From an uncultured Granulosicoccaceae bacterium (GTDB lineage: Bacteria; Pseudomonadota; Gammaproteobacteria; Granulosicoccales; Granulosicoccaceae): DNA of 64,000 nt. The position numbers and the translations under genes are program-made. The notes beneath the pieces were generated by a model. That model saw only the letters and a program-made list of their open reading frames with translations. It was not told where the DNA came from and did no database searches. The stretch is from assembly GCA_938035525.1 (NCBI GenBank), contig CALHOI010000041.1:1-64000 (forward strand), given 5' to 3'. Positions 57,664 through 61,459 of this stretch are shown piece by piece (positions within the stretch are counted from its first letter, which is position 1; every line of letters begins with the position of its first letter).

Positions 57664-58080
57664 ATGAGTGAATTTACTGATTCTTTACAAGATGTTTTTT
57701 CTCAGTTCGGCCAGATCAGTGCGCGCCGAATGTTCGGCGGGCATGGCATTTATTTTGATAATTGCATGTTTGGGCTGGTTGCAGAAGACACGCTGTATTT
57801 AAAAGTTGATCAGGAAAACATTCACCATTTTAAAGAGCTTGACCTGCCACCGTTTACCTTCGAAAAAAACAAAGGTGGCACAATGTCCATGAGCTTTCAT
57901 TTGGCCCCGGAAACCATATTTGAAGATCACGACGAAGCAGCGCGGTGGGCAGAGCATGCATGGGCTGCTGCAAAGCGGGCGAAGCTTGCCAAGTCCGCAA
58001 AAAAGTCCGCAAAAAAGTCTGCCAAGAAAATTGCCAAGAAAAAGGTAAAGAAGAAATCGAAAAAATCTCCAAACATATAA
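57664..58080 (+). CDS. TfoX N-terminal-domain protein with lysine-rich tail
   Basis: 138 residues. Residues 1-100 are a TfoX-N domain (PF04993): DSLQDVFSQFGQISARRMFG, GHGIYFDNCMFGLVAEDTLYLK, then the FTFEKNKGGTMSMSFHLAPE segment. The TfoX-C domain of true competence regulators is missing. In its place is a Lys/Ala/Ser repeat from about residue 105 (AKRAKLAKSAKKSAKKSAKK) resembling histone H1 tails. DNA or RNA binding by the tail is an inference. The GHMP-kinase gene starts 16 bases after its stop. Confidence 0.85.
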   Translation: MSEFTDSLQDVFSQFGQISARRMFGGHGIYFDNCMFGLVAEDTLYLKVDQENIHHFKELDLPPFTFEKNKGGTMSMSFHLAPETIFEDHDEAARWAEHAWAAAKRAKLAKSAKKSAKKSAKKIAKKKVKKKSKKSPNI

Positions 58081-58096
58081 GCTCACAAACGAAAAA

Positions 58097-59392
58097 GTGA
58101 GCAGAATTGAAAATAGCGCGTTAATACGACAAGCACATGAAAAGAGCCAGACACCAATAATGGATGCCACCAATTCAGCACTTGCACAAAACGAGCTTCA
58201 CGAACTTGTTTCTTACGTAAGCAATAAAGTTAAAACGCTATTTGGGCGTGAAGATGAACCGTATGTTGTTGTTTCGCCTTATCGGTTTAATCCGTTAGGC
58301 GCGCATATAGATCATCAGGGTGGGGCGGTGCTGGCCAGGACGCTTAACCAATACACTATTCTGGCATTCTATCCACTTGAAACATCGCGTATTGTTTTGC
58401 ATTGTCACTCTGGGGACTCGGCAGATAAAGCCGTTGCTTTTGATATCGGTACCACGGATAGCGATCAGAATTGGGCACGCTACGCGATGGCATCTGCGTC
58501 CACGTTTACATCACTGCTTCCAAAAGTTAACGGGTTTTCCGGCTTGGTTTATGGCTCCATGTTAGGCGCAGGTTTAAGTTCATCGGCGTCAGTTGTTCTG
58601 GCATACCTCGCGGCCCTTGCCAGCGCTAATCAGCTCACGTTGTCTAAAACTGAGCAAATCGATATGGTCAGGCAAGTCGAGAACGATCACATGGGGCTAA
58701 ACAATGGATTGCAAGATCAAATGTCCATTGTATTTGGTCAATCCCAAGCCTTGTCTCTGCTGCACATGGATTCAGTGAGCGCAACGTACATTAATAACCC
58801 AGACAACATAGAAGCAGTAAGATGGGTGCTTTGTTACTCAGGCTTTGATCGTGAATTAGTCTCGTCGGGGTTTAACGATCGTGTCCGGGAATGCCGTGAA
58901 GCTGCCTCCTTGTTAGATTCCCATGCTACTGTATTAGGTGATGTCAGCACCGACAATCGTACAAACCAAAAAATAGATGCTCTACCGGCGCATTTGGGTC
59001 GACGTGCCCTGCATGTGTATGGAGAAATGGACAGAGTCGCCAAAGGAGCGGCAGCCTGGGCTGAGGGTGACTGGTCTTTGTTTGGTCATCTAATGAATCA
59101 ATCTTGTCAAAGCTCCATAGTTAACTATGAGTGCGGCAGTGACCCAATGGTGGAGCTGCGAAATATCGCCCTAAAGCAACCTGATGTCTATGGCAGCCGA
59201 TTTAGCGGTGGAGGCTACGGAGGTTGTTTGATTATGCTGGTGAAGGAATCTGGTGTTGAGTCAGTTAAAAATGACGTGCTTAATGCTTTCCTGGCCCGTT
59301 ATCCTGAAAAGCAGGATGTTGCAAAAACGTTTGTTGGTGTTGCTGAGAAAAACTTGCGTTTGCACTACACCGAATCAAGTGCAAAACGCTGA
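58097..59392 (+). CDS. GHMP sugar kinase, galacturonokinase-like
   Basis: 431 residues of the galactokinase family. Motif 1, SPYRFNPLGAHIDHQGG (60-76), replaces the galactokinase GEHTDYN form and matches, from memory, the wording of plant galacturonokinase. The ATP loop is GAGLSSSAS (157-165), the catalytic aspartate lies in LQDQMSI (D207), and motif 3 is FSGGGYGGC (about 369-377). It would phosphorylate a sugar or uronic acid at C1. The start at 58097 is a GTG without a ribosome site; an ATG at 58160 is an alternative. A nucleotidyltransferase gene follows after 71 bases, consistent with kinase then activation to a nucleotide sugar. Confidence 0.8.
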   Translation: MSRIENSALIRQAHEKSQTPIMDATNSALAQNELHELVSYVSNKVKTLFGREDEPYVVVSPYRFNPLGAHIDHQGGAVLARTLNQYTILAFYPLETSRIVLHCHSGDSADKAVAFDIGTTDSDQNWARYAMASASTFTSLLPKVNGFSGLVYGSMLGAGLSSSASVVLAYLAALASANQLTLSKTEQIDMVRQVENDHMGLNNGLQDQMSIVFGQSQALSLLHMDSVSATYINNPDNIEAVRWVLCYSGFDRELVSSGFNDRVRECREAASLLDSHATVLGDVSTDNRTNQKIDALPAHLGRRALHVYGEMDRVAKGAAAWAEGDWSLFGHLMNQSCQSSIVNYECGSDPMVELRNIALKQPDVYGSRFSGGGYGGCLIMLVKESGVESVKNDVLNAFLARYPEKQDVAKTFVGVAEKNLRLHYTESSAKR

Positions 59393-59463
59393 ATCAAGTT
59401 GATTAGCTTCCTTTTTGCAGCACACGCCCAGATAGCACACGCCCATGACTCAACCCACTCCCC

Positions 59464-60219
59464 ATGATCCAACCCAAAAGTATGTCTGGTAGCCATCCCG
59501 TAAAAAGTGCCATTGTTTTGTGTGCAGGTCGCGGTAAACGCTTAAAGCCACACACCGACAACACACCAAAACCGCTGCTGGCTGTATCAGGTAAGCCGAC
59601 CCTCGACTTTGTTCTTGATGCACTGAATTATGCAGGCATACAGCAAGTGGTTTTAGTGACTCATTATCTTGGTGAGCAAATTGAGGCATATGCTCAGCAA
59701 CAATCATTTTTCCCAATAAGCGCCATACATTGTGTTGATCAACAAAAGCTGGCTGGTACGGCAGATGCGACCTTAATAGCGCTCAAAGCCAAGCCTGAAT
59801 GGTTTTTGAACTCGTTTGTGTTAACGGCCAGTGATTATCTTGTGCCGCAAGCGTTTTATCACGACTTGATACAAGCTTATAGTGAAAGCCAAAAGGCGAT
59901 AGCTTGCAGCCTAAAGCGCATTGCAGAATCGGAAATGAACATGCGCAGCAGTGTGCGTTTTAACGAAAACGACGACGTTTTAGAGGTGGTAGAAAAGCCG
60001 GCGCCAGGTACTGCCCCCAGTCCATTCAGTGCTAACCTGGTGTTTGTTCTGCCTGCTGATATCAAACAATACATTGAAGCCGTCGATTTTTCCGAGCGTG
60101 GAGAAAAGGAAATTCAATCTGCGATAAATGCGTATATACAGGGCAGTGGGGCGCCTTTGTTGCCCGCTTGCGCACTGGTGCAGAATACCCCTGCTGAGTG
60201 GCATCCATCGCTTCTGTAA
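59464..60219 (+). CDS. Sugar-1-phosphate nucleotidyltransferase
   Basis: 251 residues of the nucleotidyl-transferase family (PF00483). The signature IVLCAGRGKRLKPHTDNTPKPLL lies at about 17-39. VVLVTHYLGEQIEAY, LAGTADATLIALK and TASDYLVPQAF give the substrate and metal sites; the metal aspartate (usually DGD) is in ASDYL. It forms a nucleotide sugar from a sugar-1-phosphate and NTP. It follows the GHMP kinase on the same strand. Base specificity (UTP, dTTP or GTP) cannot be told. An ATG at 59482 is an alternative start. Confidence 0.85.
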   Translation: MIQPKSMSGSHPVKSAIVLCAGRGKRLKPHTDNTPKPLLAVSGKPTLDFVLDALNYAGIQQVVLVTHYLGEQIEAYAQQQSFFPISAIHCVDQQKLAGTADATLIALKAKPEWFLNSFVLTASDYLVPQAFYHDLIQAYSESQKAIACSLKRIAESEMNMRSSVRFNENDDVLEVVEKPAPGTAPSPFSANLVFVLPADIKQYIEAVDFSERGEKEIQSAINAYIQGSGAPLLPACALVQNTPAEWHPSLL

Positions 60220-60350
60220 GTCAATCGCTGATTGGCTAGTCGTTAGCCTTTTTGTGGGTAAATTTACCCGGATTGCCGGTATTTGGGTTTGTACCGATAC
60301 TCGTGCAGCGCATTAATATTGTGCTCAGTTATTTCAGTTTGAGCATACCC

Positions 60351-61459
60351 ATGAAGCCTATTTTTCTTCCCTTAGCTGCTTGTCTTTTTGCCTGCACCAG
60401 CGCCATCGCCCAGCCTGTGGTCAAAGGTAATGTCATTAGCTGGCCAACGTTGGGAATACCATAGAACGTGACGGCGAAACAGTAGCCACTTTGGCGGGTG
60501 GCAACCTGAACAGCTATTTCGATTTCACCCGCAATGCGGGAACGCCTCATAATTATAGAATTATTGTTAACTACGCGAACGGAGAAAGCGCAACCAGCGC
60601 TGTCATTCAAACACAAGGCTATGCTTTGGTGCCTGATGTTCCCGTTGCCAGCGACTTATTAACGGATGAAGAGCGCCGACAACTCAATGTGGCGTTTGAT
60701 ATCTTTAATGCGACTGCCTTACAAAAAGTCGCCGCGGTTGGTGTTTTATTAGCTGACCCTGAGCAAAGCAACTTTGCTCTGGCCAATGAGCAGCTGGATG
60801 AGAGCGGTGCTGCTAATGTATATAACTGCCCTGGTGGTGGCACTTTGACAGGCCGGCCTAATCCAACATCGAGCAGGGCGCTGGATGAGTGTCGTATCGG
60901 CTCGCTGGTTTTTAGCGCGCGTTATGTACAATTAGAGAATGCCGTCTCTATTAACAGCGCCAATTTGCTGGATACGCGAGACAACAGTCGAATAGAATTT
61001 AACCTGGGCCAGGCCAGAGTGTTCGGCAACGATGTGACTGATGGGGTAGCTGCTAATGGCGCAACGGCCGACGCTGGCTATTCAGTCACTTCCCCCGAAG
61101 GTGATTATTCGGTGGGTCGACTTTCTTACGACTTTCAAGCCAGAAACTTTACTGATAACCCAAATGTGGGCAGTGTCACCATTGCGGAAAATATCAGTGG
61201 TTTAATTGGTAGCAATGCCCGGTTACAAACACTGGGGCGTTTTAATGTAAGCAGTGCCGAAGCAATGCCAACAACCGGTACCATGCTCATTAGCTCTGAC
61301 AGCAGCGAAACGCTACGTATTGATGCCAACAGCGGTAACCCCGATACGTTTTTGTTCACCAGTAACGTCGGTGGCGCAGTCGTTAGTTATGAATTGGCGT
61401 GGACCGACAATTGGTCGATCAAGCCAATTTCCTTAACCGATATAGACACCGGCGAGTAA
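60351..61459 (+). pseudogene. Exported protein gene interrupted by an apparent 1-base deletion
   Basis: The ATG at 60351 opens a signal peptide (MKPIFLPLAACLF, then ACTSAIAQ) and continues VVKGNVISWP before a stop at 60462-60464. The next frame (60440 onward) reads NVGNTIERDGETVATLAGG and runs without stops to 61459 for over 320 codons. Joining them near 60445 restores a sensible protein of about 370 residues, and one missing base explains the shift. ISWP followed by a wordy loop and -AGG is a pattern I know from gammaproteobacterial exported proteins. The mature part is beta-rich and unrecognised. It could be a genuine pseudogene or a sequencing error. Confidence 0.75.

Follow-up and report, generated by a model that had tools for sequence, protein, structure and literature searches.

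A galacturonokinase-like kinase paired with a nucleotidyltransferase: a candidate operon for uronic acid salvage in Granulosicoccaceae

A GHMP kinase gene and a sugar-1-phosphate nucleotidyltransferase (NT) gene lie in tandem in an uncultured Granulosicoccaceae bacterium and probably form an operon, usually translationally coupled, that salvages uronic acids by way of uronate-1-phosphate to UDP-uronate. As read from the sequences, the kinase would use ATP to phosphorylate C1 of a free D-uronate (galacturonate, glucuronate or both), and the NT would join the resulting uronate-1-phosphate to UTP (dTTP is possible) to give UDP-uronate and pyrophosphate. Bacteria normally make UDP-glucuronate and UDP-galacturonate de novo, by oxidation of UDP-glucose followed by epimerisation; plants and some animals are known to obtain them from free uronates by salvage. 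Neither a bacterial route of free-uronate salvage nor a dedicated operon with a galacturonokinase (GalAK)-like kinase was found in the open-access papers searched. Both enzymes are members of established superfamilies, and a two-step scheme of this kind has precedents.

The gene pair and its distribution

The window is a stretch of 64,000 nt of a Granulosicoccaceae MAG contig (CALHOI010000041.1, assembly GCA_938035525.1). A sequence-only reading of it had proposed a GHMP kinase with the motif PLGAHIDHQGG, followed 71 bases after its stop by a sugar-1-phosphate NT. Both open reading frames were found in place (Table 1) and the Pfam matches agreed, with GHMP_kinases_N, GalKase_gal_bdg and GHMP_kinases_C in the first protein and NTP_transferase (PF00483) in the second. 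An in-frame GTG at 58097 is an alternative start of the kinase, giving 431 aa; the ATG is the likelier start because of the lengths of the homologues. For both proteins no NCBIfam cut-off was reached among the best 25 models listed. The genome also carries a true galK between genes for alpha-galactosidase and galT (Leloir cluster). Since this separate cluster serves galactose, the pair is not needed for galactose use.

Table 1. Features of the kinase-NT pair, with positions in the window.
Feature	Position	Strand	Remarks
GalAK-like GHMP sugar-1-kinase	58160..59392	+	410 aa from ATG 58160; Pfam, NCBIfam, homologues, AlphaFold2
PLGAHIDHQGG motif	58292..58324	+	Glu of GEHTDY is Ala48; His49 and Asp51 kept
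Presumed catalytic Asp186 codon (GLQDQ)	58715..58717	+	aligned with GIMDQ of human GALK1
Phe238 codon (SGFNDRV)	58871..58873	+	aligned with Tyr236 of human GALK1 and Tyr250 of Arabidopsis GalAK
Sugar-1-phosphate nucleotidyltransferase (NT)	59464..60219	+	251 aa; own subfamily, GalU/RmlA fold
Arg161 codon (RSSV)	59944..59946	+	invariant across the subfamily; replaces Tyr of SYG(I/V)V in GalU/GMPP
Terminator-like hairpin, then T5	60234..60248	+	3' of the NT gene; hairpin sites of terminator type here not more frequent than in shuffled sequence

The kinase was found in 22 of the 36 Granulosicoccaceae genomes, at 45-67% identity to that of the window (the window itself being the 100% match); the other matches of the kinase search in these 36 genomes were ordinary GalK at about 30% identity. 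All 22 kinase-bearing genomes had the NT gene directly downstream on the same strand, and among the 14 genomes that lacked the kinase the NT occurred in only one (G033). In 18 loci an NT frame with a start codon overlapped the kinase stop by 4 bases. Kinase and NT distances were correlated (r=0.87, Mantel p=0.0005). The two genes thus stay together and diverge together. The pair was also present at quite different sites within the family, so its cohesion is independent of the surroundings.

Outside the family, the pair was carried by a related Chromatiales symbiont of Bugula (L030). It was met again in Chloroflexota, where identity was 43-46% and the NT belonged to the same subfamily; in one locus there (L065) the NT is fragmented. 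In three other Chloroflexota, plant-like kinases were accompanied in the same position by a different NT subfamily, only 24% identical to the first type. The fact that two NT subfamilies stand beside the kinase indicates that the link is one of chemistry and not of one particular gene, and this is the strongest argument that what the kinase makes goes on to nucleotide activation. Evenly drawn samples of the class and the phylum outside Granulosicoccaceae yielded no further kinase; the viral contigs searched gave no match, and the matches of the plasmid search were ordinary galK. The scan of genome contigs was one run with strict peptide patterns, which does not establish absence from other phyla.

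In the sequence-only reading, a lack of conserved pairing or a kinase clustering inside the ordinary galactokinases would have refuted the idea; neither was observed, as the counts given here and the tree below show. The reading of the pair as a two-step kinase and NT salvage is therefore well supported.

The kinase and its sugar pocket

The kinase, whose sequence reads ...SPYRFNPLGAHIDHQGG..., was placed in a maximum-likelihood tree of 51 rows with a midpoint root. GalAK-like kinases, including that of the window, were split from GalK at support 100/100. A provisional sequence of Arabidopsis GalAK grouped under the same root, at 99/94, with the three kinases of plant-like type from Chloroflexota; it showed 36% identity with the window kinase, 40% with one from Chloroflexota and 28% with the genome's own GalK. 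The window kinase scored 184 bits against the TIGR00131 galactokinase model, below the cut-off of 226.65, and stayed far below the cut-offs of the other GalK equivalog models. The kinase clade is thus separate from galactokinase, with the catalytic residues retained. An ordinary galactokinase was ruled out by this separate clade and by the galK already present in the genome.

In complexes of galactokinase with galactose, O6 is held by the Glu of GEHTD together with the His after it, O3/O4 by the Asp and O4 by a Tyr; the catalytic Asp and an Arg act on O1. In the pocket of the window kinase the His, Asp, Arg and catalytic Asp are kept, Glu is changed to Ala and Tyr to Phe. The AlphaFold2 model (pLDDT 89.6) had human galactokinase with bound galactose as its nearest folds (TM 0.84/0.89). 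The motif PLGAHIDHQGG is invariant or nearly so in 20 homologues from Granulosicoccaceae and Chloroflexota and is thus not due to chance, and its DHQGG wording was specific to the GalAK-like group among the rows compared. Position 41 (GalAK numbering) is Ala or Ser in every GalAK-like row, with Ala in the window kinase, whereas every GalK row has Glu or Asp. Position 250 is Phe in the window kinase and most of its relatives; Tyr250 is retained in the Bugula symbiont (L030) and in loci L056/L064, L057/L065 and L060-L062. The Chloroflexota kinases with Tyr250 looked plant-like along their length.

The provisional sequence of Arabidopsis GalAK (At3g10700) carries A41, Y250 and A368, an agreement with the mutant record that is not independent of it and serves as a lead. 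Mutants of the plant enzyme at these positions were reportedly described by Yang et al. in 2009, namely A41E, reportedly inactive, Y250F, reportedly accepting glucuronate, and A368S. Galacturonate, or a related uronate, had been named as the candidate substrate in the sequence-only reading. The change in the C6 pocket fits a uronate as the kinase substrate, but Phe in place of Tyr250 argues against strict specificity for galacturonate. The Phe suggests that the configuration of the 4-OH may not be tightly read and that glucuronate is a likely substrate. With Phe at the O4 position, galacturonate alone would be no likelier than glucuronate or both 4-epimers. Since some of the paired kinases naturally have Tyr and others Phe, the recognition of the C4 configuration by GHMP kinases can readily be tested on them.

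The nucleotidyltransferase, the surroundings and other readings

The NT motifs GxGxRLxP..TPKPLL and VEKPxxGxAPS are intact, and the spacing Gln-x4-Gly-Thr, as in GlmU and RmlA, is invariant; in those two enzymes the residues so spaced contact uracil. Together with the invariant Arg in the pocket, these features fit UTP and an anionic sugar phosphate as predicted substrates. The AlphaFold2 model (pLDDT 89.3) gave UDP-glucose pyrophosphorylases (GalU with UDP-glucose) as best Foldseek matches. The orphan NT copy without kinase (L058, G033:C74, 7387-8133) stands in divergent orientation beside a galactose (Leloir) cluster, so neutral sugar-1-phosphates may be substrates of the NT as well.

The commonest locus in Granulosicoccaceae was pilT-pilU-(tfoX)-kinase-NT-tdk, and no other uronate gene was found at this usual locus. 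In the window, a protein with a TfoX N-terminal domain and a lysine/alanine-rich histone-like tail is encoded just upstream of the kinase (57664-58080). A 322-aa open reading frame without Pfam match (60491-61459) lies between the NT and thymidine kinase genes; it may be an insertion of this lineage, because tdk directly follows NT in several relatives. In L030 (10047-15869) the pair was followed on the opposite strand by genes that, judged by eye, resemble those for a mannitol dehydrogenase and for an ABC transporter of sugars. Among the near-complete Granulosicoccus genomes (relatives G000-G021), UxaC (uronate isomerase) was rarer with the kinase than without it (3/10 versus 4/4), a contrast that was not significant (two-sided p=0.07, uncorrected for kinship).

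A destination of the product in surface glycans had also been proposed, and nothing was found that links the pair specifically to them; no uronate transporter or glycosyltransferase consistently accompanied the pair in the loci compared. In five Granulosicoccus loci (L032, L033, L034, L044 and L059), a GT47 exostosin-like gene adjoins the NT gene downstream on the opposite strand (GT47 was Pfam-tested in L032 and L059), and it is followed by genes for a DUF5060 protein, a kelch protein and a FucU/RbsD mutarotase. GT47 was rejected as evidence: it occurs throughout the genus whether or not the kinase is present, and a search of the window's own genome did not find it.

Three other readings of the pair were weighed. 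Strict plant-like galacturonate salvage, in which the pair makes only UDP-galacturonate, would agree with the motif and clade common to the window kinase and the provisional plant sequence and with the plant-like look of the Tyr250 members from Chloroflexota; we consider it rather unlikely, as Phe, present in the window kinase and in the greater part of its clade, is the residue with which the plant enzyme reportedly admits glucuronate. That the pair serves a non-uronate sugar, such as a pentose or a deoxy sugar without 6-OH, appears distinctly unlikely. The missing O6-binding Glu would suit such sugars as well, one genome has its NT beside a galactose cluster, and neither the mutarotase nor the GT47 near some copies is uronate-specific; against this stand the affinity to GalAK over the whole length, the group-specific DHQGG wording, and the invariant Arg for Tyr in the NT pocket, which suits an anionic sugar.

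A second galactose pathway of the Isselbacher type, with a divergent galactokinase and a Gal-1-P uridylyltransferase, seems very improbable: although the kinase has the galactokinase fold and Pfam domains, it falls in a separate clade at 100/100, both the Glu for O6 and the Tyr for O4 are altered, a normal GalK/GalT cluster is present, and the galactokinase equivalog cut-offs are not reached. Salvage of uronic acids by the operon is the reading that we prefer. A wider version of it, in which a mobile, horizontally spread bacterial two-enzyme operon converts free uronic acids to UDP-uronates with a kinase naturally changed from Tyr to Phe, and in which plant GalAK is descended from this kinase family or has a common ancestor with it, is put forward tentatively, at somewhat less than an even chance. 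The kinase family may reveal the origin of plant GalAK.

The relatives named here as carrying the pair include Granulosicoccaceae MAGs. Granulosicoccus is abundant on kelp (PMC9238374). Since it is one of the dominant genera of kelp surfaces, amid uronate-rich polysaccharides, recycling of sugar acids would make ecological sense.

Comparison with known systems

The window kinase has in common with GalK (human GALK1 and bacterial) the fold, the catalytic Asp and Arg, and the ATP-binding GLSSS. It differs in the replacement of Glu43 by Ala or Ser in its group, of Tyr236 by Phe and of APGR by SPYR, in its separate clade and in its NT partner. The NT has the fold of GalU/RmlA (TM about 0.8) and their catalytic motifs, including VEKPxxxxAPS. 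It is only about 20% identical to them, is shorter, has the Arg of RSSV for the Tyr of SYGVV and a C-terminal PxEW tail of its own, and always adjoins the kinase except in G033.

In zebrafish, DrGKUP is a glucuronokinase fused to a short bacterial-type putative UDP-GlcA pyrophosphorylase (PMC3938481). It resembles the bacterial pair in linking a GHMP kinase that acts on uronates, as predicted for the bacterial enzyme, to a short nucleotidyltransferase of bacterial type; DrGKUP is a fusion with an N-terminal NT domain, whereas the bacterial pair is an operon. The fusion is a precedent for the two-step logic, its pyrophosphorylase activity being described as 'putative', and DrGK is a member of the GlcAK family of plants, described as very different in sequence from GalAK (PMC3938481).

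In plants a sugar-1-kinase is followed by a pyrophosphorylase in the same two-step logic (PMC8636097, PMC3659416). Plant GalAK and the window kinase have PLGAHIDHQGG in common and, with the provisional Arabidopsis sequence and a midpoint root, appear to fall in one tree clade; the plant enzyme has Tyr250 and Ala368 where the window kinase has Phe and Gly. The second enzyme of plants is a large UDP-sugar pyrophosphorylase (SLOPPY/USP), while that of the bacterial pair is encoded by a dedicated adjacent gene and has a short GalU/RmlA fold.
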